From Burkholderiaceae bacterium (lineage in GTDB: Bacteria; Pseudomonadota; Gammaproteobacteria; Burkholderiales; Burkholderiaceae_C): a stretch of 64,000 nucleotides of DNA. Below the pieces are notes generated by a model. The model saw only the letters and a list, made by a program, of their open reading frames with translations, searched no databases and was not told where the DNA came from. Positions 12,718-64,000 of this stretch are shown here, piece by piece; positions within the stretch are counted from its first letter, which is position 1, and each line of letters opens with the position of its first letter. Made by a program: the position numbers and the translations under genes. The DNA lies in contig JAKLLA010000001.1 in NCBI GenBank assembly GCA_023150375.1, forward strand, positions 372,001 to 436,000. The letters run 5' to 3'.

Positions 12718-13770
12718 TCAGGCCGCTGCGGCGGCCGCCTCGCCCCGCTCGGCCGCCACCAGGCGGTCCAGGATGCGCCGCGCGTGTGCGCCGCCGGCGT
12801 CGATGTTCAGCGTCATCAGGCGACGCTGCGGCCAGGTCTGCAGGTTGAGCTGCTGGCGCTCGAGCATCTCGCGGTCCTCGGCGAAGATGCGGCCCTGGCC
12901 CTCGCGGATGCGCGCCGTCAGCTCGGCGTCGCCGGGGCGGAAGCGCCGCGCCATGCCCCAGAAGTACCAGATCGAGCCGTCCGCCTCGGGCGTGATGAAG
13001 TCCACCACGGTGGCCGCGGTCTTGGCCTCCAGCGGCGCGTGGAAGCCGCCCCGGCCGGCCAGGGCGACGCCCACGTCGATCATCACGTGGCTGGGCGGGC
13101 TGAAGCGGCAGATCTGCCAGCGGTCCACCGGCTGGTCCGGGTCCATGCCGTTCATGCGCATGGCCATCTGCCAGAACGGCGGCGCCTGGATGCCCGCCAT
13201 GTGGCGCTGCGTGATCACGCGGTCGCCCTCGCGGTGGGTCTCGCAGGGGGTCTCGTCGATCTCCGACTGGCCGATGCTGGTGGCGTGCACGTAGGTCTCG
13301 TGCGTCAGGTCCATCAGGTTGTCGATCATCAGCCGGTAGTCGCAGGCGATGTGATACATCCCGCCGCCATGGGCCCACTCGGGGTTGCCGGACCACTCGA
13401 AGTCGGGCAGCTGCGCCGCATCGGCACGGTCCGCATCGCCGGGCCAGACCCAGACGAAGCCGTGCCGCTCCTGCACGGCGAAGCGGCGGATCGGCGCGAA
13501 GCGCTCGACCCGCTGGCCAGGCATCGACAGGGTGCGGCCGTCGCAGCCCATCACCAGGCCGTGGTAGCCGCAGACCAGCTCGCCCTGGCAGACCCGCCCG
13601 AGCGACAGCGGCGCACCGCGGTGGGGGCAGAAATCCTCCAGCGCGCAGACTTCGCCCTGCGCATTGCGGTAGAACACCATGCGTTCACCACAGATGCGCC
13701 GCCCCAGCGGCCGGCCCTCGACCAGTTCGTCGGGGGTGCAGGCTACGTACCAGGCATTCATCGGAAACAT
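12718..13770 (-). CDS. vanA: Vanillate O-demethylase oxygenase subunit (Rieske non-heme iron)
   Basis: Protein of 350 residues, the usual VanA length. It demethylates vanillate (and related methoxy-benzoates) to protocatechuate plus formaldehyde. The Rieske [2Fe-2S] ligands are CPH (Cys48, His50) and CGYH (Cys67, His70). The mononuclear iron site lies in DNLMDLTHETYVH (His157, His162). The ATG at 13768-13770 has GAGGAG 7 bp upstream. A VanR-type operator lies about 60 bp upstream. The usual reductase partner vanB is not adjacent, so electrons must come from a reductase encoded elsewhere. Other Rieske demethylases (for example dicamba or syringate type) share this architecture, but the operator supports VanA. 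Confidence 0.88.
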   Translation of the reverse strand: MFPMNAWYVACTPDELVEGRPLGRRICGERMVFYRNAQGEVCALEDFCPHRGAPLSLGRVCQGELVCGYHGLVMGCDGRTLSMPGQRVERFAPIRRFAVQERHGFVWVWPGDADRADAAQLPDFEWSGNPEWAHGGGMYHIACDYRLMIDNLMDLTHETYVHATSIGQSEIDETPCETHREGDRVITQRHMAGIQAPPFWQMAMRMNGMDPDQPVDRWQICRFSPPSHVMIDVGVALAGRGGFHAPLEAKTAATVVDFITPEADGSIWYFWGMARRFRPGDAELTARIREGQGRIFAEDREMLERQQLNLQTWPQRRLMTLNIDAGGAHARRILDRLVAAERGEAAAAAA

Positions 13771-13829
13771 CGTCGCGCTCCTCGCGGCGGCGCCGGATCG
13801 CCGTTCGATCCACCTCGTTCACCGCCATC

Positions 13830-13841
13830 ATTGGATCCAAT
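13830..13841. promoter_or_regulatory. VanR-type operator (perfect palindrome)
   Basis: ATTGGATCCAAT, a perfect 12-bp palindrome, is identical to the VanR operator core I recall for Caulobacter vanAB. It sits in the vanA-vanR intergenic region, about 60 bp from the vanA start and 10 bp before the vanR start, so it can repress both promoters until vanillate binds VanR. Confidence 0.85.
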
Positions 13842-13850
13842 TAGAGCATC

Positions 13851-14606
13851 ATGATTTCTGATTCACAAGACAATGACGACGAAGTGGATCCAATCGAGTC
13901 CGAGCAGGCCGCCTCGCCCAGCCTGGTGGCGACGCTGCGCAAGCTCATCATGGACGGGCGCTACGCCGCCGGCAGCCGCATCGCCGAGATCCCGGTGGCC
14001 GAGGCGCTGGGCGTGTCGCGCACGCCGGTGCGGCTGGCCTTTCGCACCCTCGAGCAGGAAGGCCTGCTGGAGAAGACCGGCAAGCGCGGCTACACCGTGC
14101 GCGCCTTCTCCGAGGCCGACGTGCTCTGCGCCCTCGAGGTGCGCGGCGTGCTCGAGGGCCTGGCCGCACGCCGACTGGCCGAGCGCGGCGTCGGCGCCGA
14201 GGTGATGGCCGCGCTGCAGGCCGCGCTGGCCGAGGGCGAGGCCGTGCTGGCCAAGGGCTGGCTGGAGGAGGCCGACATCGCCGCCTGGAGCGCGCTCAAC
14301 GAGCGCTTCCACCGCGCCATCGTCGGCGCCACCGGCAGCCGGGTGATCGGCGATGCGATCGCGCGCAACGACCACCTGCCCTTCGCCTCGGCCGACTCGC
14401 TGGTGATCGACCGCCACGCCCTGGGCGCCGAGTTCCGCAAGCTGCAGCTCGCGCAGATGCAGCACCAGCTGATCGTCGAGGCGCTGGCCCAGGGCGAGTC
14501 GGCCCGGGTCGAGGCGCTGATGCGCGAGCATGCCTACATCGCGCTGCGCTACGGCCGCCTGTTCGGCCTGGCGGTGCGGCTGGCGCCGCCCGGCAGCAGC
14601 GCCTGA
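13851..14606 (+). CDS. vanR: GntR/FadR-type repressor VanR
   Basis: Protein of 251 residues. An N-terminal winged helix (about 24-85, with AEALGVSRTPVRLAFRTLEQ) is followed by an all-helical FCD ligand-binding domain (ALEVRGVLEGLAARRL and the metal- or ligand-binding histidines FHRAI and MREHAY). It is divergent from vanA and separated from it by the VanR operator, so it is assigned as the vanillate-responsive repressor. Family knowledge: VanR releases DNA when vanillate binds. The ATG at 13851 has no strong ribosome site, and a second operator copy lies inside the first 15 codons. Confidence 0.85.
   Translation: MISDSQDNDDEVDPIESEQAASPSLVATLRKLIMDGRYAAGSRIAEIPVAEALGVSRTPVRLAFRTLEQEGLLEKTGKRGYTVRAFSEADVLCALEVRGVLEGLAARRLAERGVGAEVMAALQAALAEGEAVLAKGWLEEADIAAWSALNERFHRAIVGATGSRVIGDAIARNDHLPFASADSLVIDRHALGAEFRKLQLAQMQHQLIVEALAQGESARVEALMREHAYIALRYGRLFGLAVRLAPPGSSA
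13883..13894. promoter_or_regulatory. Second VanR-type operator inside the vanR coding region
   Basis: AGTGGATCCAAT matches the upstream operator at 11 of 12 positions. Its centre is 53 bp from the centre of the first site, very close to five helical turns. It falls within codons 11-15 of vanR. This could allow cooperative binding or a repression loop. Confidence 0.6.
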
Positions 14607-14651
14607 GCCCTGGCGCGCACGCAGCCGGCCGCCCGGGCGGCGCGCCAGGGC
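14607..14651 (+). terminator. Long GC-rich hairpin after vanR
   Basis: The arms GCCCTGGCGCG (14607-14617) and CGCGCCAGGGC (14641-14651) are perfect complements of 11 bp, and the loop itself is self-complementary GC-rich sequence. It begins right after the vanR stop. No U-run follows, so it may be a transcript-stabilising or Rho-assisted end. The rest of the gap to 14822 shows nothing clear. Confidence 0.45.
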
Positions 14652-14822
14652 GAGCTGCATCAAGAAACCTCCTCCGCTTTCGAGGTCTTCCCCGAGGAAA
14701 TCGGTGCGGGATCAGGCGAAAATCACGCTCCTGTGCGGGGTGGACGGCGCCCCGTCACGGCACCCGCCGTGCAACTGATCCCCTGCCGGGGGCCCCCGGG
14801 TCGGCCCTCGTGAAAGTCGAAG

Positions 14823-16091
14823 ATGAAACGTTTGGATGATTTCCGCATGCGCCTGGGCCGCCACGAGCTGGTGCCCATCATGATCGGCGGCATGGGCGTG
14901 GACATCTCCTCCGCCGATCTGGCGCTGGAGGCCGCCCGGCTGGGCGGTGTGGGACACATCTCCGACGCGATGATCAAGACGGTCACCGACCGCCGCTACA
15001 AGACCAAGTTCGTCAAGGCCAAGCAGGCGCTGTACAAGTACAACGTCGACTCGCCGGACAAGTCGCTGGTCAAGTTCAACCTCGCCGACCTGGCCGAAGC
15101 GACCCGGCTGCACGTGCAGCACACGATGGAGCGCAAGCGCGGCAGCGGGCTGGTGTTCATCAACTGCATGGAAAAGCTGACGATGAACGCCCCGCGCGAC
15201 ACCCTCAAGGTGCGCCTGGACGCGGCGCTGAACGCAGGCATCGACGGCATCACGCTGGCCGCCGGCCTGCACCTGGGCTCCTTCGCCCTGATCGAGGACC
15301 ACCCGCGCTTTCGCGATGCCAAGCTGGGCATCATCGTCTCGAGCCTGCGCGCGCTGCAGCTCTTCCTGAAGAAGAACAGCCGCCTGAACCGCCTGCCCGA
15401 CTACGTCGTCGTCGAAGGCCCGCTGGCCGGCGGGCACCTGGGCTTCGGCATGGACTGGGCGCAGTACGACCTGGCCACCATCGTCGCCGAGATCGCCGCC
15501 TGGCTGAAGGCCGAGCAGCTCGACATCCCGCTGATCCCCGCCGGCGGCATCTTCACCGGCAGCGATGCGGTGGGCTTCCTGGAAGCCGGCGCCGCGGGCG
15601 TGCAGGTGGCCACCCGCTTCACCGTCACCAAGGAATGCGGCCTGCCCGACGACGTCAAGCAGGAGTACTTCAGGGCCGGCGAGGACGACATCGAGGTCAA
15701 CCAGATCTCGCCCACCGGCTACCCGATGCGCATGATCAAGTCCAGCCCCGGCATCGGCGACGGCATCCGCCCGAACTGCGAGGCCTACGGCTACCTGCTC
15801 GACGCCACCGGCAAGTGCGCCTACATCACCTCCTGGAACCGCGAGGTGGCCGCCCACCCGGGCGCCAAGCGGGTGCAGGTGTTCGACAAGACCTGCCTGT
15901 GCACGCACATGCGCAACTTCGAGATCTGGACCTGCGGCCAGCTCACCTGGCGGCTCAAGGACACCACGGTGCGGGCGCCCGACGGCAGCTACCAGCTGCT
16001 CAGCGCCGAGCATGTCTTCCGCGACTACCAGTTCAGCACCGACCACCGCGTCCACCTGCCCGAGCCAGCGGTGGCCGAAGCCGCGGCCTGA
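14823..16091 (+). CDS. Nitronate monooxygenase family FMN enzyme
   Basis: Protein of 422 residues with a TIM-barrel FMN fold. It oxidises nitronates/nitroalkanes or may act on a related substrate. Recognisable parts are the N-terminal PIMIGGMGVDISSADLALE, the catalytic-His-containing segment VVEGPLAGGHLG, and the phosphate-binding IPAGGIFTGSDAVGFLEAGAAGVQ near residue 240. A C-terminal Cys-containing extension of about 100 residues (CLCTHM) goes beyond short nitronate monooxygenases and is typical of longer homologues. It is a single gene downstream of vanR. Its exact substrate is unknown. Confidence 0.85.
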   Translation: MKRLDDFRMRLGRHELVPIMIGGMGVDISSADLALEAARLGGVGHISDAMIKTVTDRRYKTKFVKAKQALYKYNVDSPDKSLVKFNLADLAEATRLHVQHTMERKRGSGLVFINCMEKLTMNAPRDTLKVRLDAALNAGIDGITLAAGLHLGSFALIEDHPRFRDAKLGIIVSSLRALQLFLKKNSRLNRLPDYVVVEGPLAGGHLGFGMDWAQYDLATIVAEIAAWLKAEQLDIPLIPAGGIFTGSDAVGFLEAGAAGVQVATRFTVTKECGLPDDVKQEYFRAGEDDIEVNQISPTGYPMRMIKSSPGIGDGIRPNCEAYGYLLDATGKCAYITSWNREVAAHPGAKRVQVFDKTCLCTHMRNFEIWTCGQLTWRLKDTTVRAPDGSYQLLSAEHVFRDYQFSTDHRVHLPEPAVAEAAA

Positions 16092-57221: not shown

Positions 57222-57309
57222 TGGTGCCGGAGGCCGGACTCGAACCGGCACGCCGTATGAGGGCGGTGGATTTTGAATCCACTGCGTCTACCGATTTCGC
57301 CACTCCGGC
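57222..57309 (-). tRNA. tRNA-Leu (anticodon CAA)
   Basis: Read on the minus strand, an acceptor stem GCCGGAG pairs with CTCCGGC. The anticodon arm has loop TTCAAAA (anticodon CAA), followed by a long variable arm (CGCCCTCATACGGCG) as in class II tRNAs, the T arm GGTTCGAGTCC and an encoded CCA end. The 88 nt include CCA. Complete and apparently functional. The integrative element begins on its 5' side. Confidence 0.97.
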
Positions 57310-57352
57310 AGGGAACCGGGCGCTGTCAGGCCGCGGGGCGCGATTATGGCAT

Positions 57353-57417
57353 GGGCTCTATGAGAAAGAGCCCGATCGGGGGTCCTGAGCGACGAAAGAC
57401 AGCACTGTCGAGACAGT
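57353..57417. other. Palindromes between tRNA-Leu and the integrase (candidate att or control region)
   Basis: GGGCTCT and AGAGCCC form a 7-bp stem with a 7-nt loop (57353-57373). A perfect 14-bp palindrome ACTGTCGAGACAGT lies at 57404-57417. A related CTGTCAGG word occurs at 57323-57330. This 136-bp gap could contain the recombination core and arm or regulatory sites of the integrase. Confidence 0.5.
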
Positions 57418-57445
57418 CGGTGGTTGCGTCCGGAAAGGCCTCGCC

Positions 57446-58588
57446 GTGACGCATCTAATGACACAGTTTGCCCAGCATCGCACCATGTCCTTGACGGACA
57501 GCGTGGTCATCAACCTGCCCCGCCCGAAGGAGGGGAGGCAGACGATCCGGGACAGCAAGGTGCCGCACCTGCTGCTGGTGGTGGGGCCCCGTAGCCGGAC
57601 GTTCTACATGCATGCGACCGCGCGAGGCCGGTCCTATCGGGTCAACCTCGGGCGCGCCCCTGTCCTGAGCGTCGACGATGCCCGCCGCGCTGCCGTCGAC
57701 GCCCTGCGCGACGTGTGGGCAGGGGTCGACCCTCGGATCAGCCGGACGGCGGCGGTGCCCACGCTGCGCGAAGCGCTGCAGGCCTACCTCGGCCGCGGGA
57801 CGATGCGCCCTGCCAGCGTGCGCGACTGCAGGGGCACCCTCGAGCGTCACGCTGCGCCCTGGCTGGACAGGGTGGCGACGTCGGTCGACCCCGCGGGGCT
57901 GGCTGCAGCCTACAAGGGACTGTCGACCCGCTCGCCGGCGACAGCGGCGAAGCTGCTGCGGCACCTCGGTGCCGTGCTGCGCCACGCGGCTGCAGCCTGC
58001 CCGGCGATCGATCCCGAGGTGGTCACGCGAGCCCGGGCGCTGGCCGGGGGTGCCGTGGCAGTGGCGCCCCGCGATCGGCTCATCCCGGACGCACTGCAGG
58101 GCGCATGGTTCGCGGCCCTGCAGGGCGAGGCCGAGCCCGTGCGCCGCCTGCTCTGCGCCCTGGCCCTGACGGGGTGCCGGCGCGAGGAACTGCGCGACCT
58201 GCCCGCCGCAGCGTGGTCCCCGGCCGCAGACAGCTTCACGATCGGCCAGACGAAGACAGGGCGGCCCCACACCCTTCCTGTCACGCCTGCCCTTGTCTGG
58301 GCCCTGGGTGACAGCCTGCCCGAGGTGAGCGAGTCCACGCTGCGGGGCGCTTACGAGCGCATCGGGCGGGCCATCGGGCAGGAGTGGAGCCCGCACGACC
58401 TGCGGCGCGGCTTCGCCTCGATCGCGGCGCGTCTCGGCGTGGATGAACTGCAGATCAAGCGCCTGTTGAACCACGCAGCCACAGGGGTGACGCAGCGGCA
58501 TTACGTCAGGCTCGGCGCCGACGACGTGCGGGGGGCGCTCGAGCGTGTACAGGCGCACCTGCTCGGGCTGTGGGGGGTGACAGCCTGA
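57446..58588 (+). CDS. int: Tyrosine recombinase (integrase) of the element
   Basis: Protein of 380 residues. An N-terminal arm/core-binding part precedes the catalytic domain with the Arg in LTGCRREEL, the HxLRR motif HDLRRGFASIA, a His in LLNHAATGV and the nucleophilic Tyr in TQRHYVRL, so the active site is complete. It should integrate and excise the element. GTG at 57446 is taken as start, with GGAAAGG just upstream; ATGs at 57458 and 57485 are alternatives. It points away from tRNA-Leu into the element. Confidence 0.9.
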   Translation: MTHLMTQFAQHRTMSLTDSVVINLPRPKEGRQTIRDSKVPHLLLVVGPRSRTFYMHATARGRSYRVNLGRAPVLSVDDARRAAVDALRDVWAGVDPRISRTAAVPTLREALQAYLGRGTMRPASVRDCRGTLERHAAPWLDRVATSVDPAGLAAAYKGLSTRSPATAAKLLRHLGAVLRHAAAACPAIDPEVVTRARALAGGAVAVAPRDRLIPDALQGAWFAALQGEAEPVRRLLCALALTGCRREELRDLPAAAWSPAADSFTIGQTKTGRPHTLPVTPALVWALGDSLPEVSESTLRGAYERIGRAIGQEWSPHDLRRGFASIAARLGVDELQIKRLLNHAATGVTQRHYVRLGADDVRGALERVQAHLLGLWGVTA

Positions 58589-58596
58589 GGTCCGGG

Positions 58597-58653
58597 CCCT
58601 GACAGGTGGGTGGCCCCCGCGAAGCGGGGACTGTCAGGGGTGGACTGTCAGGG
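58597..58653. repeat. Cluster of CTGTCAGG-type repeats around a hairpin after the integrase
   Basis: CCCTGACAG (58597-58605) is the inverse of CTGTCAGGG (58631-58639). Between them, CCCCGC and GCGGGG form a hairpin with a GAA loop (58615-58629). A direct copy ACTGTCAGGG recurs at 58644-58653, and GGACAGTGGG follows shortly after. The hairpin could end the integrase transcript. The repeats look like a protein-binding array. Confidence 0.65.
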
Positions 58654-58771
58654 CGGGTGCAGGACAGTGGGTGGTGGCGGGCGGGTTTCGGCCTGGCTGG
58701 CGCTGCTCGGTCTGCTCGAAGCTGATGGGGTGCAGGCCGGCGGGCCGGACAGAATCGGCGCGGCGGGGGCC

Positions 58772-58860
58772 TAATCTCGACTCCGAGGGGCCTGCAGGCG
58801 AGATTGATTCGAGGGGCTCGGTAGCGACGACGTCGAAATCGAGCCCGTGATAATCTCGCC
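58772..58860. repeat. AATCTCG repeats upstream of the element's second gene
   Basis: AATCTCG occurs at 58773-58779 and within AATCTCGCC at 58852-58860. The exact inverse GGCGAGATT sits at 58797-58805. These lie in the 362-bp gap before the next gene and may be operator sites for one of the element's HTH proteins. The remaining gap sequence shows no gene. Confidence 0.5.
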
Positions 58861-58950
58861 GACGTCACGGCACGCACTGGGATCGCCACCTAGTCCGAGC
58901 GTCGCTTCTCCCCGGTTCCGGCGCTGCGCCGTGACCCTCTACGGACCGGG

Positions 58951-59691
58951 ATGAACTGGGGAAACTCCATGATCGCCCTTCTAAGGTCCGTGCAGGATAA
59001 GACTGCACCGGAAATGCTCTCGCGCGCCTCGGTGGCCTATCTTGCCGCATCGGATGGGGTTTTCAGCCCTGAGCCTGAACAGGTGGCGGAGATGGCCCGG
59101 ATGATCGACAGGCTTGTGGAGCGCGGGACCCTGAAGACCACGATCAAGACCTATGAGTCGAAGAGCTGGAACCATTACAGGGTTTTCGACGCAGGTCGCG
59201 GGGAATGGGTCGAGGTGCAGCGCATCATGGGGTCGACGCCGACGGAGCGGGACGTCCCGCAGGGTGCCGAGATGGTCCCCCACTACCGACATGAAGAGTT
59301 CCTGCGTGCCGAAGACGTCGGTTCCGCGCTGTTGACGCTCGGTGAGCGTGGCGAGGCCCTGTGTTCCGTCGACCTGCTGGCCTGGCTGGCGCTGCATGGT
59401 GTTCGTCTTCCGAAGCGGGGCCGACAGGTTGAGGTGGCGCGCCCCGACGACCAGTCGATAAAGCTGTCTGCGCTGGGCAGGGTGCTCGAAGGCGAGTATG
59501 GGAAGTGGGTTTTTGCCGCGGTTAAGCCGAAACTCGACCATGCAGCGGATTATCCCTGGCTTGCGGGCTGCAAGGCAGGGCACGGCAAGTTCTGGCGCAG
59601 TGCCACCATTCAAGCGCTGGAACAGCAAGGACTGCTGCCCCGGCGCGTCAAGTCCTCGACCCCGGCGCAGCCTCTAAGAGCTGTCGGGTAG
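58951..59691 (+). CDS. Hypothetical protein of the integrative element
   Basis: Protein of 246 residues (or 240 from the ATG at 58969, which has GGGGA nearby). No signal peptide or membrane segment. The C-terminal third has an aromatic/Lys pattern (EGEYGKWVFAAVKPKLDHAADYPWLAGC) quoted here only in part: GKWVFAAVKPKL. I do not recognise a family. Its lower GC at third positions and its place between integrase and HTH genes suggest an element-specific control or accessory role. Confidence 0.6.
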   Translation: MNWGNSMIALLRSVQDKTAPEMLSRASVAYLAASDGVFSPEPEQVAEMARMIDRLVERGTLKTTIKTYESKSWNHYRVFDAGRGEWVEVQRIMGSTPTERDVPQGAEMVPHYRHEEFLRAEDVGSALLTLGERGEALCSVDLLAWLALHGVRLPKRGRQVEVARPDDQSIKLSALGRVLEGEYGKWVFAAVKPKLDHAADYPWLAGCKAGHGKFWRSATIQALEQQGLLPRRVKSSTPAQPLRAVG

Positions 59692-59786
59692 GGTTTCTGC
59701 AGGTTCCTGCGGGAATCTGCAAAACCCGGTCATGTCGGCGACCTGACGGGAAGAATTCGGCCATCTTGAAACCGGAGGTGGCCGGA

Positions 59787-60320
59787 ATGGCTGAAGTCTC
59801 GAAACTCACGCTCGAAACGAGTGAAGTCGCCCGCCTGGCAGGGGTGACGCCCGATGCGGTAGCGCTCGCAGTCCGTCGAAATGGTTCGTTCCGGGGTATT
59901 AGTCCCCGACGGGCTGCGAATGGGCGGGATCTGATCTGGCCGGCCGATGAGGTCCGCTTCTGGCTCGGAAGCAGGCTTCCGAGCCTGCCCAGCGGTGCCT
60001 GGGAGCTGGCGGGCCGGATGGTCGGGAAGGTCGACGCCCCAGTCGACGCCCTGCTGCAGGCCGGCGCGACCTTGCTCGACAGCCGGGGCTTTGCGAAGTC
60101 GGGGCAGCGGGTGCCCGAGCTGCTCGCCGACGTGCGCGACGTGGCTGCACTGGTACGGGCGGGGGTATCTCGGATCGAGTGGGCGCTCTCGGACGAAGGC
60201 CAGATGAAGCCGGCCGACTGGCAGGCGCTGCGGGGCCTGGCCGAGGTGCTGCGCGAGGCCGGCGACGACGTGGCCCGGCTCGCCGACTGGGCCCCTGTCG
60301 GGAATGGGGGTGCAGCATGA
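59787..60320 (+). CDS. Helix-turn-helix protein of the element (AlpA/excisionase-like N-terminus)
   Basis: Protein of 177 residues. The N-terminus (LTLETSEVARLAGVTPDAVALAV, given in parts: SEVARLAGVTPDAVAL) is a MerR/AlpA-type helix-turn-helix, followed by a helical region (about 70-165) that may form a coiled dimer. The ATG at 59787 has a strong GGAGG 8 bp upstream. Its stop overlaps the next start (ATGA). AlpA-like proteins regulate integrase or excision in phage satellites; a similar role is inferred. Confidence 0.65.
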   Translation: MAEVSKLTLETSEVARLAGVTPDAVALAVRRNGSFRGISPRRAANGRDLIWPADEVRFWLGSRLPSLPSGAWELAGRMVGKVDAPVDALLQAGATLLDSRGFAKSGQRVPELLADVRDVAALVRAGVSRIEWALSDEGQMKPADWQALRGLAEVLREAGDDVARLADWAPVGNGGAA

Positions 60321-60550
60321 GCCCGTTCCTCGATACCGACTTCGCCCCCCTCGACAGCGAGCGCACGGCGCAGCAGGTGCGCGTCCTGGAAGCGCTGAAG
60401 CAGGGTCCCCGGACCACGCTCGAGCTGCGCCAGATGGGTGTGGCGAACTGCGCCGCCCGGGTGCTGGAACTGCGCCGGCAAGGCTTGGACATCCTCACAG
60501 CGCGGGCCGGCCGGTTCGCCTGCTACGTCCTGCGCGGAGGTGCGACGTGA
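60317..60550 (+). CDS. Small winged-helix protein of the element
   Basis: Protein of 77 residues with a helix-turn-helix pattern: TAQQVRVLEALKQGPRTTLELRQMGVANCAARVLELRRQG (given in parts: VLEALKQGPRTTLELRQMG then AARVLELRRQG), then a short beta wing ending YVLRGG. Such small winged-helix proteins are common beside replication genes of phages and satellites. Its start and stop overlap both neighbours, so it is translated as part of the replication operon. Confidence 0.7.
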   Translation: MSPFLDTDFAPLDSERTAQQVRVLEALKQGPRTTLELRQMGVANCAARVLELRRQGLDILTARAGRFACYVLRGGAT

Positions 60551-61995
60551 AAGGCCGCCTGACCCTGTTCACCTCGCCCGCCCTGCTCGCCAAGCGCTGG
60601 GAGTGGGTCGACGGCGAGGCCAAGAAGACGACCGCGGCGCAGATGACCTCGGGCAGCTATGAGGTACTGAGCTTCGACAGCGTGTCTGCGCTGGTCGACA
60701 TCCTGCGCGATGTGTCGACAAAGCAAGCGCTTTGCGCCTCGATCCCGCTGGATGGCAGCGAGTCTGGCGCGATCACGACCCGGGCTGCAGCCGGTGACAG
60801 GCCGGGTGCCTTGACGCGGACGAAGGACTGCTTCGCCCTGCCCAGTGGCCCGGGGATCGGCTTCATCGATTGCGATGAAGCCGGCATCTCGCGGGATCAG
60901 CTCTTCGACATGCTCTTCGAGGCCGCACCTGCGCTGCGGGATGCCGCGATGCTGTGGCGCCCCTCGGGCTCTTCGCACATCTTCCACGGCGACCAGGACC
61001 TTACGGGCCTGCGTGGACAGCATGTGGTGGTGCCGGTCGCCGATGCGTCGGACTGGCCCCGAGCGCTGAAGGTCATTGCCGCCCGGCTCTGGCTGGCAGG
61101 ACATGGCCGAGTCAAGGTCAGTTCGGCCGGCGCCCTGCTCGAACGCTGCCCCGTCGACCTCGCGGTGGGGGAAGCGGCGCGACTGCTCTTCGTGGGGGGC
61201 TCGCATTGTGAGCCCCCCCTCGAACAGCGGCGCGGCGACGTCGTGGTCAGGCCGGGCGGATGGCTGGACAGCAGGGCGTCGATTGCGGACCTGAGCAGCG
61301 AGGAAGCAGGAAGGCTCGAAGGCCTCATTGCACAGGCGAAGGCTGCGGCTCTGCCTGAAGCGCAGCGCCTGCGCGAGTTGCATCGGGCCTCGACAGTCGG
61401 TCGCCGCGTGCCCGAGCTGATGCGAGCAGGCTGCAGCGCCAGCGAGGCGGAAGCGCGCATCGGTGCAGCCTGTGATGCGGCGCTCGCCGGGGTACTTCTT
61501 GGCGACTTCGAACTGTCTGTGGTGGGGCAGGATGGCCGGTGCACCTTGGTGACAGTGGGGCAGGTGCTGGCCGATCGGGATCGGTGGCACGGCGCGACCT
61601 GTCTCGACCCCCTGAACCCCGAGCATCGCAGTGGTTCGCCGGACGCGGTCCTGTATCTGCACGAAGCGTCGCCGGTGCTGTTCAGCCTGGACGATGGCGG
61701 ACAGATCTACAGGCTGCGGGCGCAGCGGGTCAGGGTCACCGCTGTGGCAGGAGGAAGGGACGACGTCGTGCAGCAGCTTGCCGCTGTGGTCTCGGACCTC
61801 GATTGCGTGTTCCACGCAGACGGTTCTCCTGTCGTGCTGGTCAACGACCGCCTTGTAACCCTGACCCGGGCTCATCTCCTGAACCTGCTGGGGACCGCTG
61901 TTGCCTTCTTCCGGCAGACAGGGCGCGGTGTGGCGCCCGCAGACATCCCTCCCGATCTGGCCGACCTTGTCTTGAGCCACCTCGCAACCTACTAG
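60547..61995 (+). CDS. Putative primase-polymerase (archaeo-eukaryotic primase, PrimPol-like)
   Basis: Protein of 482 residues from a GTG overlapping the previous stop (GTGA). Three motifs of the archaeo-eukaryotic primase fold appear in order: hhhDhD as GIGFIDCDE (Asp108, Asp110), sxH as SGSSHIFHG (His144), and hD as RCPVDLAV (Asp204). The following ARLLFVGGSHCEPPL resembles a conserved segment I associate with primases of integrative elements. The C-terminal half is unassigned. It should prime replication of the element. The next gene encodes a helicase-like P-loop protein, the other half of many fused primase-helicases. Confidence 0.65.
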   Translation: MKGRLTLFTSPALLAKRWEWVDGEAKKTTAAQMTSGSYEVLSFDSVSALVDILRDVSTKQALCASIPLDGSESGAITTRAAAGDRPGALTRTKDCFALPSGPGIGFIDCDEAGISRDQLFDMLFEAAPALRDAAMLWRPSGSSHIFHGDQDLTGLRGQHVVVPVADASDWPRALKVIAARLWLAGHGRVKVSSAGALLERCPVDLAVGEAARLLFVGGSHCEPPLEQRRGDVVVRPGGWLDSRASIADLSSEEAGRLEGLIAQAKAAALPEAQRLRELHRASTVGRRVPELMRAGCSASEAEARIGAACDAALAGVLLGDFELSVVGQDGRCTLVTVGQVLADRDRWHGATCLDPLNPEHRSGSPDAVLYLHEASPVLFSLDDGGQIYRLRAQRVRVTAVAGGRDDVVQQLAAVVSDLDCVFHADGSPVVLVNDRLVTLTRAHLLNLLGTAVAFFRQTGRGVAPADIPPDLADLVLSHLATY

Positions 61996-62004
61996 GAGCA
62001 AAGC

Positions 62005-63240
62005 ATGCCGCTCAAACCCCTTACTGCCGTTCTCGACCTGCCCTTCGCCACCCCGGACGGCAGGGTCATCACGAAGCCGGGCTATGACCGTGACAGTGCG
62101 ATGTATCTCGCCCTGGATCGGCACTGGTCGCCGACAGTGCCTGTGCGGCCCAGCAAAGACCAGTTGCGCGCCGCGCTGGTCGACATGCTGGCGCCGTGGT
62201 CGGGTTACCGGTTCACGTCGCCGGACGATGCCGCAGGACTTGTGTCTGCGGTGCTGTCTGCCCTGTGCCGCCCCGTCCTGCGCACCTGCCCGGCCGTGCT
62301 CTTCGACGCAGCGCAGCAGGGCAGCGGGAAGACGAAGGCAGCACTAGCTTTGGGGGCGCTGGTCGAAGGTCGCATCCCCGGGATCGCCACCCTTCCCGCT
62401 GGCGACGAAGAGGTGCGAAAGATGCTGCTGTCCTATGGTGTCGACCATGCGCGCAGCCTTTGCATCGATAACCTGATCGGGCATGTGAAGAGTGCCGCGC
62501 TTACGGGGATGTTGACCTCGGGCCGGCTGTCTGGTCGCGTGCTCGGGTCTACGAAGACAGTCGACATCGCCGCCCACTTCCTGCTCACGCTCACGGGAAA
62601 CAATGCGTCGGTCGACGCCGACCTGCTGCGCCGCACCGTCTGGGTCCGGATCAACGCCGGGGACAGGCCTACGCACCGGAGCTTCGAGTTCGACCCTGTG
62701 GAAACAGCCCTGCAGCTGCGCAGGCGCATCGCTGTCGCTGCCTGCACGCTGTGGCGCGGCTACTTCGAGGCCGGCGCGCCGACAGTGGTTCGGGGCGATG
62801 CCGGCGGGTTCTCGGACTGGAACAAGCTGTGCCGACAGCCTGTGCTGTGGTTGGCCCGGGAAGGGCTGGCCGACAGCCTGCCTTGGGGGGTGGGCGACCC
62901 GGCCGCGTCCATGCTCTCGGACGCATCGGCGACCGACCCCGAGCTGGGCACGCTGGGCGACCTGCTCGAGGCCCTGGAGGAGTGCAGCGGCGGACAGCCG
63001 TTCACCGCAGTCGAGGCGCAGCACTGGTTCCGGATCGGGGCCAGCCGCAGCGACAGGAGTCCCGAGGGTCGGGTGCACTCCGCACTGTGGGACTTGACGA
63101 AGCAGCGCGAGCTGTCGTCGCAAAGCATCGGCCGGGTCCTGCTCAACCGCCGGGACCGGTCCGTCGGCGGGCTGTGCTTGCGGGCTGGCGCGAAGCGTCA
63201 GGGAAGCCTTCTTTGGGCCGTAACCCGGTCCACTCACTGA
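62005..63240 (+). CDS. P-loop replicative helicase-like ATPase of the element
   Basis: Protein of 411 residues. Walker A is AQQGSGKTKAALAL (about 103-116), the Walker B-like segment is ARSLCIDNLIG (about 149-159), the sensor-1 Asn lies in LLTLTGNNAS (about 193-202), and a probable arginine finger is in LLRRTVWVRINAG. This layout matches AAA+/SF3-like helicases attached to primases in phages and plasmids. The C-terminal third (about 290-411) may be a winged-helix DNA-binding domain. It starts 9 bp after the primase stop. Confidence 0.7.
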   Translation: MPLKPLTAVLDLPFATPDGRVITKPGYDRDSAMYLALDRHWSPTVPVRPSKDQLRAALVDMLAPWSGYRFTSPDDAAGLVSAVLSALCRPVLRTCPAVLFDAAQQGSGKTKAALALGALVEGRIPGIATLPAGDEEVRKMLLSYGVDHARSLCIDNLIGHVKSAALTGMLTSGRLSGRVLGSTKTVDIAAHFLLTLTGNNASVDADLLRRTVWVRINAGDRPTHRSFEFDPVETALQLRRRIAVAACTLWRGYFEAGAPTVVRGDAGGFSDWNKLCRQPVLWLAREGLADSLPWGVGDPAASMLSDASATDPELGTLGDLLEALEECSGGQPFTAVEAQHWFRIGASRSDRSPEGRVHSALWDLTKQRELSSQSIGRVLLNRRDRSVGGLCLRAGAKRQGSLLWAVTRSTH

Positions 63241-63256
63241 CCTGTCGCCGACTTTT

Positions 63257-63374
63257 GGGGGGCTGGGGGGATAAGGGGGATATTTCCAATCAAGTCTACC
63301 CCCCTATTCATTGTTTCCCGTATTGGTTGAAAACATCCCCCGCATCCCCCTATCCTCACATACCCCGGGGGTAT
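63257..63374. other. G-tract and palindrome segment after the helicase gene (candidate replication origin)
   Basis: Three G-tracts (63257-63262, 63265-63270, 63275-63279) include two direct copies of GGGGGATA. The mirrored CCCCCTAT occurs at 63300-63307 and 63346-63353. ATACCCCGGGGGTAT (63360-63374) is a perfect 15-bp dyad. An AT-rich stretch lies between them (about 63305-63336). The gap 63241-63385 carries no gene. Iteron-like repeats beside an AT-rich stretch just after primase and helicase genes fit a satellite origin, but a promoter/operator role is equally possible. Confidence 0.45.
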
Positions 63375-63385
63375 AGGACACCAAA

Positions 63386-63844
63386 ATGAACGAATCGGAA
63401 GCCGAAAACACTGGGCCCGCCCGCCCGCCTGAGACTGTCAGCGAGCGCGGATCGGCCTACCTGCTGGCCCTGACGATGGGCAGCGAAGGCCTGCCGCCGG
63501 CCGCGGCCCTCGAGGAACTGAGACAGCGGGTTGCCCGCCTGCGCGACCCGACGTCGCCCGCGGCCCTCGAAGAGCTGTCGGGGCATCTCCCCCTCCTGGA
63601 TGCGCTCTGGCAGCGGATGGCGGCCGAGGCGGTGCGCGCCAAGCGCCCGGATGACCGCGCCCGCCTGCTCAGGGCAGCGCTGCATGCGCAGGCCGCCTAC
63701 GGACGTACCGTCGCCCTCCTGCACGGCCTGGAGCTGCAGCGCCGGGGTCTGGCTGCGGTCTCGGTCGGCAGCAGGCCCGGACGCGCCCCGTCCCTCGGGC
63801 ATGACGGCGGGGGCAACCCCGACGACCTGGAGGCGCTGCCGTGA
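63386..63844 (+). CDS. Hypothetical protein of the element
   Basis: Protein of 152 residues, mostly helical (about 40-125, rich in Ala, Leu, Arg and Glu), with no membrane segment or known motif. The ATG at 63386 follows AGGA at 63375-63378. Its stop overlaps the GTG of the next gene. I cannot assign a function; a small packaging or regulatory subunit is one guess without direct support. Confidence 0.55.
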   Translation: MNESEAENTGPARPPETVSERGSAYLLALTMGSEGLPPAAALEELRQRVARLRDPTSPAALEELSGHLPLLDALWQRMAAEAVRAKRPDDRARLLRAALHAQAAYGRTVALLHGLELQRRGLAAVSVGSRPGRAPSLGHDGGGNPDDLEALP

Positions 63845-64000
63845 CCAGACCCGGACAGGACAGCGGGGACGGCAACGTCCACCCCACCGGCGGGCCGGTG
63901 CCCGGGGTCGGGGTCGGGGTCGGGCAGCGGGTCGGGGTCGGACAGCAGGGCGAGCAGTGCGGGCGGGCCGAGCAGGGCGAACAGCGCCAGCAGGCCGGCG
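63841..64000 (+). CDS. Partial hypothetical protein with low-complexity N-terminus
   Basis: Starts at GTG 63841, overlapping the previous stop (GTGA), and stays open to the window end (53 codons visible). The sequence is low complexity: a Gly-Val run encoded by repeated GGGGTC, then Gln/Glu/Arg-rich residues. Coupling to the previous gene supports a real gene, but it could also be a chance reading of GC-rich repeats. Confidence 0.4.
   Translation, partial: MTRPGQDSGDGNVHPTGGPVPGVGVGVGQRVGVGQQGEQCGRAEQGEQRQQAG

Follow-up and report, generated by a model that had tools for sequence, protein, structure and literature searches.

The window, the whole stretch of DNA analysed here, comprises 64,000 nucleotides of contig 1 of a Burkholderiaceae bacterium with a genome of 4.63 Mb (GCA_023150375.1, JAKLLA010000001.1, positions 372001-436000), and near its right end a sequence-only reading had placed an integrative element with separate primase and helicase genes (57310-64000). 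Searching the element against its own genome returned a 47-base duplicate of its first bases just beyond the window, and end-to-end comparison by blastn of 19.2 kb of DNA around the right edge gave a single perfect 91-bp direct repeat, with the left copy of the attachment site (att) at 57266-57356 and the right copy at 64427-64517 (L006:7628-7718), 427-517 bp past the window end. The element therefore spans window positions 57266-64517 with a unit of 7,161 bp; the second att repeat expected to the right was found, and the bounds first proposed proved wrong on both sides, the start lying inside a tRNA gene and the end outside the window.

The intact target gene is tRNA-Leu(CAA) (57222-57309, minus strand; ARAGORN and Rfam RF00005), and the repeat holds tRNA positions 44 to 1 plus 47 bp upstream, that is, the 5' half of the tRNA together with its conserved -10 promoter box, CATAAT (57343-57348, minus strand). 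Alignment of the empty sites in the genus revealed this as the sole conserved upstream box (12/12 sites), immediately preceded by TGC in 11 of the 12, and we take TGC plus CATAAT to be an extended -10 promoter. Because the box lies inside the repeat, the tRNA retains its -10 after insertion, and everything further upstream is element DNA. Beyond the right repeat the element adjoins a cysM-like gene. In each of the 12 other genomes of the genus, tRNA-Leu(CAA) and cysM lie side by side with just 97-183 bp between them, so the site is empty there. An intact tRNA at one end, a tRNA fragment at the other and an integrase within are the features of tRNA-targeted tyrosine-integrase islands, those with 5' tRNA fragments being the rarer kind (159 of 3919 in Islander, as given in PMC4383910). 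Chance or artefact is ruled out as the origin of this arrangement by the exact 91-bp repeat, the 12 empty sites and a gene block in common with L013, a locus in a Rubrivivax metagenome-assembled genome (MAG) that is the closest relative (relative loci carry L numbers throughout). At the right border (64427-64470, L006:7628-7671) the native tRNA promoter region stands before the tRNA 5' half and points antisense into the element; this half holds a complete anticodon stem-loop, and a tRNA-half transcript is conceivable. Elsewhere, a tRNA of matching type, tRNA-Leu(CAA), has an integrase gene just past its 3' end in a Desulfobacteraceae relative (L031, 1082-2581).

All genes of the element lie on one strand, the plus strand of the window, and its open reading frames (ORFs) encode a tyrosine integrase, a winged-helix protein, a primase of the archaeo-eukaryotic primase (AEP) type, a helicase of the superfamily 3 (SF3)/D5 type and four proteins with no clear assignment, one of them weakly helix-turn-helix (HTH)-like. 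The 380-aa integrase (57446-58588) is complete, as the sequence-only reading had it (PF00589 1.7e-10, PF13356 2.3e-10, phrog_1 3.3e-33), and its own genome holds no second match to it at E <= 0.001. Behind it, the intergenic region 58589-58950 carries three CTGTCAGGG boxes, at 58597 (inverted), 58631 and 58645, which are possible operator or arm-type sites; their core, CTGTCAGG, recurs within the att repeat at 57323, and a comparison of both element ends for paired arm sites found no common word longer than 8 bases. A 246-aa protein (58951-59691) with no Pfam, PHROG, NCBIfam or PADLOC match separates the integrase from two regulator-like genes. The first encodes 184 aa (59766-60320), with an N-terminus weakly resembling MerR (0.52 in Pfam) and the excisionase/regulator family phrog_66 (0.074), and is a candidate regulator or excisionase. 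The second encodes a 77-aa winged-helix protein (60317-60550; HTH_39, PF14090, 4e-7, above cut-off), whose homologues precede the primase in L013 and in the Psychrobacter plasmid pA32H2. Two small HTH proteins had been claimed at this position, and the claim stands for the second, while the first is only weakly HTH-like and neither directly follows the integrase. Similarly, the overlapping stops and starts once ascribed to the whole run are real for the 59766, 60317 and 60547 genes (4 bp at each junction) and absent between the integrase and 58951 genes and between primase and helicase. Past the origin-like segment described below lie a gene for a 152-aa protein with no family match of note (63386-63844), kept in L013 at 51% identity over 117 aa, and a 139-aa ORF that starts in the window and continues past it (63841-64000; in full L006:7042-7461), of which a 19-aa segment is in common with an L013 ORF. 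The window's integrase, 246-aa and 184-aa proteins have no similarity to their positional counterparts in L013. No capsid, terminase, relaxase, transfer or partition gene was recognised among the eight ORFs scanned, so that what had been said of the visible part holds for the complete element, and a plain prophage or integrative and conjugative element (ICE) is unsupported.

The primase is a separate gene for 482 aa (60547-61995, plus strand), recognised by its match to the PHROG named DNA primase (phrog_16593, 3.3e-51) and by its motifs; its AlphaFold model is confident (predicted local distance difference test, pLDDT, 93). The three AEP motifs that had been read from the sequence are present and in order: D108-x-D110, S140-x-S142-x-H144 and D204. 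An alignment of 43 rows, the window plus 42 of the 56 loci from alignment-based scans (L015, L041, L043, L048-L052, L055, L059, L060, L063, L066 and L067 were left out), has D108, D110, S140 and D204 identical in every row and S142 in 42, whereas the motif-II histidine position varies widely (H 9, C 9, Y 9, N 6, L 3, G 3, E 2, F 2). A homologue on a Cereibacter plasmid, 34% identical over 98%, passes the Pfam family PF01896 (DNA_primase_S) at 43.8 bits against a cut-off of 26.8, over residues 113-246, which span motifs I to III. Among viral structures in BFVD, 11 proteins match the primase model at E <= 0.001, the best being an uncharacterised Xanthomonas phage protein (4e-34), and some of these matches carry the name replication origin-binding.

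Nine bp downstream, the helicase gene (62005-63240, plus strand) encodes 411 aa with a GSGKT Walker A motif, in agreement with the P-loop ATPase first noted, and its AlphaFold model (pLDDT 91.5) matches 69 chains of the Protein Data Bank (PDB) at E <= 0.001 (best 2e-5). Among the 50 matches listed, 49 are chains of AsfvPrimPol, NrS-1 (C-terminal region), mpox E5 or vaccinia D5, SaPI5 or PriRep1. G108, K109, N156, R209 and R210 occur in all 33 rows of the helicase alignment (L041 and L055 were dropped from its 34 references), and DUF5906 is matched weakly in two of these rows (best 6.6e-4) and below cut-off in two of the nine fused relatives scanned. On the strength of the model comparison, we take the product to be an SF3/D5-type helicase. 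In the profile test proposed with the sequence-only reading, Pfam gave neither a primase nor a helicase match on the window proteins themselves.

Directly behind the helicase gene, an origin-like dyad with runs of five to six G (63241-63385) has 54% GC against 68% for the element and, at the place of the origin-like repeat segment first noted, contains all four GGGGGAT/ATCCCCC sites of the element, two per orientation; more than two such sites fell within a like stretch in 0 of 500 shuffled elements. With the looser pattern GGGGG[AT], 6 of 17 occurrences lie here. The 300 bp after the L013 helicase gene carry nine runs of at least five G or C where 0.65 would be expected. An alignment of the two segments outscores 993 of 1000 shuffles, and the words TTTCCAA and ATTG-n-TTGAAAA recur in both between the G and C runs. 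At 36 other loci there are mostly zero or one such run, with four in L022 and three each in L027 and L035, and thus the feature is not strictly confined to the pair with split genes.

This split is itself conserved. Across 69 classified relative loci, 42 have a fused primase-helicase, 23 have no recognised helicase of the window type (the contig is cut off or has another C-terminus), in 3 the primase core is detached from the remainder, and only 1 has a clean split; fusion is therefore the state of 42 of the 46 relatives with a recognised helicase of this type. The clean split is common only to L013 (primase 55%, helicase 54% identity), with which the window forms a pair at 100/100 support on a long branch, whose position is unresolved, in a 64-row tree that dropped matches shorter than 300 residues and gave a composition warning for the window row among others. 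As identical loci were counted separately (L018/L055, L008/L046, L047/L063, L059/L060), these locus counts do not equal independent events; the fused-type L008, in another genome of the genus, is identical over the tree region to L046, a Sphaerotilus sp. contig, which makes Sphaerotilus or a close kin within the family Sphaerotilaceae the probable host. Profile searches at E <= 1e-20 covered 369 genomes from the class and 399 from the order, two sets that overlap in part, and returned eight primase relatives outside the element's own genome, seven of them fused and one (L073) a primase piece with an internal stop in the match, and none with a split of the window type.

The primase and helicase ORFs share a frame, with 9 bp between them (stop to start TAG GAG CAA AGC ATG), and with so many relatives fused one may ask whether a stop codon recently broke a fused gene in a decaying element, which we judge very improbable. 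The helicase gene is equipped with an ATG and a GGAG site of its own; L013 is split differently, with a 4-bp overlap in place of the gap; and between window and L013 third codon positions differ most in both genes (0.58 versus 0.30-0.35 at the others in the primase, 0.57 versus 0.29-0.40 in the helicase), a pattern that selection acting on each protein would produce. For the 152-aa ORF the difference is less marked (0.45 versus 0.31-0.38), and the winged-helix gene shows none (0.47 versus 0.40-0.45). Because the split recurs in the closest relative, it represents a conserved gene arrangement and not a broken gene, and the separate primase and helicase described from the sequence are borne out. 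Another kind of separation occurs in L041 (7854-10675), L050 (551-3372) and L043 (5258-8149), where a primase core of about 290 aa stands apart from the C-terminal part plus helicase; in two of the three the frames overlap, which may point to a second site of fission or to a programmed frameshift.

Relatives occur in compact integrated elements, on circular plasmids and in phages. Of 60 loci scanned, 5 relatives on genome contigs are delimited by exact repeats of 25-55 bp that lie 6.6-9.6 kb apart at tRNA or tmRNA genes: L013 (8,766 bp, 3' part of tRNA-Val(GAC), JAUXRG010000020.1), L034 (9,556 bp, tRNA-Arg), L035 (6,560 bp, tRNA-Phe), L037 (6,585 bp, tRNA-Met) and L025 (8,130 bp, tmRNA). The four bounded by tRNAs carry the 3' tRNA part, unlike the window element. 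Repeats of 17 bp at L018/L055 and L053 were taken as chance. Few ORFs of the bounded relatives were searched for families; beside integrase and primase-helicase, L025, L034, L035 and L037 list no ORF longer than 240 aa except one of 667 aa in L034 (11923-13926), which from its N-terminal sequence we take to resemble an acyltransferase and which may be surface-changing cargo. In L013 a second tRNA-Val fragment has another integrase gene directly beside it (13575-14925), perhaps a tandem array at one tRNA, and Gamma proteobacterium HdN1 houses two related 6.6-kb elements, L035 and L037, with closely similar primases and different integrase-side genes. Of 40 loci taken from genome assemblies, 19 have a co-oriented integrase gene upstream, 7 of these being profile seeds (ten integrases and three winged-helix proteins seeded the profiles and match by construction), and of the 21 loci without one, 9 hold less than 4 kb upstream of the primase. 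In viral contigs single-protein scans confirmed no relative; alignment-based scans did.

Phages encode homologous primases, some fused to a helicase, and the element could be what remains of a larger prophage. The perfect flanking repeats, the open core ORFs, the similar sizes of five relatives with other borders and the site being empty in the 12 other genomes of the genus make such a remnant highly unlikely.

We regard the element as a complete compact integrative replicon, able both to integrate and to replicate itself, and consider this reading fairly likely. The same interpretation had been offered from the sequence alone, and it gains from the right att copy, from the structural match of the helicase and, for the primase, from phrog_16593 and from PF01896 in one relative; related modules also lie on circles, in plasmid pA32H2 and in the IMG/VR contig L064. 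The integrase would recombine the element into and out of the tRNA-Leu(CAA) gene, with the weakly HTH-like protein perhaps controlling excision. The winged-helix protein, the helicase or both would open the excised circle at the G-run dyad downstream of the helicase gene, where the SF3 helicase would unwind DNA and the AEP primase would prime, and perhaps extend, new strands. Because none of its genes was recognised as one for capsid, packaging or transfer, spread between cells may use the machinery of another agent, a helper phage or a conjugative element.

Several observations weigh against this reading, beginning with the fact that excision, replication, origin function and transfer are steps that we infer; what the analysis shows are the borders, the empty sites, the gene content, the homologies and the conserved split. 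The primase matches no Pfam AEP family, nor does any of the 43 alignment rows at E <= 0.01, and only one of nine fused relatives scanned has a Pfam primase match. Foldseek found no solved structure in the PDB for the primase model at E <= 0.001 (a herpes simplex virus 1, HSV-1, helicase-primase chain came at 0.26), and for the helicase matches the TM-scores on the query reach only 0.30-0.40. Comparison by hhalign with PF09250-type and RepB-type AEPs gave at most 3.2% probability, aligned on motif I, an uninformative outcome given that the positive control of two known AEP sets reached 1.1% and unrelated pairs 0.1-0.7%. The likeness of the origin-like segment to that of L013 is modest, with 7 of 1000 shuffles scoring as high, and the segment folds no better than shuffles (z -0.77), for which reason an origin hairpin was rejected. 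Finally, in ICETh2 of Thermus, a PrimPol encoded beside a helicase restricts the entry of foreign DNA and is dispensable for replication of the element, according to the account in PMC7693054. By analogy, the window primase might serve host or element in defence against incoming DNA and not in replication, which seems improbable to us: it is co-oriented with a replicative-type SF3 helicase and an origin-like dyad, neither protein has a PADLOC match, and pA32H2 has no other annotated replication gene in its feature table (four features, which may be incomplete).

How such an integrative replicon would travel bears on two special cases of it, and it is probably either a minimal integrative plasmid or a phage satellite, copying itself and borrowing a vehicle to spread. 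As a helper-dependent satellite like the PICMI, it would be excised and replicated on phage infection and packaged as concatemers in unmodified heads, a possibility to which we give a little less than even credence. The minimal plan of int, regulator and primase with no capsid remodelling is that described for PICMI (PMC10803314), in L013 and L037 a gene overlaps int by 4 nt, as iolg does in PICMI, and AlpA, clear in pA32H2 (4.8e-8), is weakly matched in L035 and L037. The window element, however, has no significant AlpA, no int-overlapping gene, no fis site and no DUF3987/DUF5906 match, and 50,697 phage records held no DNA match at E <= 0.001; no packaging site was identified. As an integrative plasmid, its circle would be maintained for a time and mobilised in trans by conjugative elements, a case we entertain tentatively. 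Fused homologues do lie on circular plasmids, namely pA32H2 (6.5 kb), pA17P3 (17.7 kb, with an annotated integrase) and Cereibacter plasmids (~105 kb), but among the eight ORFs scanned none was recognised as a relaxase or partition gene, and 72,556 plasmid records gave as DNA match only a 46-bp piece in 8 Streptomyces plasmids, none meaningful. The satellite is thus slightly ahead of the plasmid as an account of travel. The 10,043-bp contig L064, with an integrase, a primase and presumably a Rep-like ORF, is probably a circle given its 51-bp terminal repeats, and its primase is very close to that of the Psychrobacter plasmid pA17P3.

Bounded cases occur in alpha-, beta- and gammaproteobacteria, and unbounded relatives in contigs labelled as other phyla. 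It is possible, if doubtful, that they form a family, as yet without a name, of integrative replicons 6-10 kb long whose AEP primase is barely seen by Pfam and has dropped the motif-II histidine, elsewhere regarded as diagnostic for AEPs, with primase-helicase fission conserved in one lineage (so far only probable Sphaerotilaceae) and with the window element targeting a tRNA 5' half and carrying its -10 box; under this doubtful reading the elements would all be satellites dependent on helper phages, outside Vibrionaceae. What is new here, namely the lineage with a split replicase, the AEP family poor in the histidine and the 5' att that carries a promoter box, overturns nothing that is known. 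Small and cleanly bounded, with one integrase, few small proteins, a two-gene replicase and an origin-like site, the element makes the minimal needs of a self-copying passenger testable. Its separate primase and helicase genes allow each to be removed or assayed alone. The variable motif-II histidine raises the question of how such primases bind nucleotides, and an att with the tRNA 5' half and -10 box, an uncommon arrangement, illustrates how the front part of a tRNA gene of the host can be exchanged by an element.

No described element of this exact kind appeared in the titles and abstracts surveyed, the level at which most papers were covered. ICETh2 of Thermus thermophilus is alike by description (PMC7693054) in encoding a PrimPol with a putative helicase in a mobile element, and differs in the dispensability of that PrimPol. 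The cryptic integrated mobile genetic elements (MGE) with PrimPol-PV1 primases, as described by Kazlauskas et al. 2018 (PMC5862659), lie mostly at tRNA genes between direct repeats, often pair the primase with a helicase and include a class (iii) without phage and conjugation genes; compared with that description, the window element has no Pfam AEP match, its family's motif II goes beyond the H/Q/Y patterns and its helicase gene is separate. The PICMI of Vibrionaceae, in the account of PMC10803314, have int, regulator and primase and no capsid genes, the type element measuring 6.1 kb, with int, alpA and iolg needed for excision and the primase for copy number. By PICMI's own criteria the window element is not one of them: its att lies in tRNA-Leu(CAA) by cysM and not at fis, its host is another, the AlpA regulator (PF05930 or PF12728) has no match in it up to E 1, with phrog_66 at only 0.074, and neither DUF3987 nor DUF5906 is found on its proteins. 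Plasmid pA32H2 (NZ_MN657069.1, 6,547 bp) likewise has an HTH_39 gene shortly before a homologous primase(-helicase), but it is circular, with the order AlpA, HTH_39 and fused primase-helicase, a clear AlpA and no integrase by profile. The closest counterpart is L013, which differs in its integrase (no BLASTP similarity), its target (the 3' part of tRNA-Val(GAC)), its 8.8-kb size, a second integrase gene beyond the right repeat and a 366-aa minus-strand ORF inside, and which has in common with the window element the split primase and helicase, the winged-helix gene, a 152-aa-type protein and an origin-like segment.

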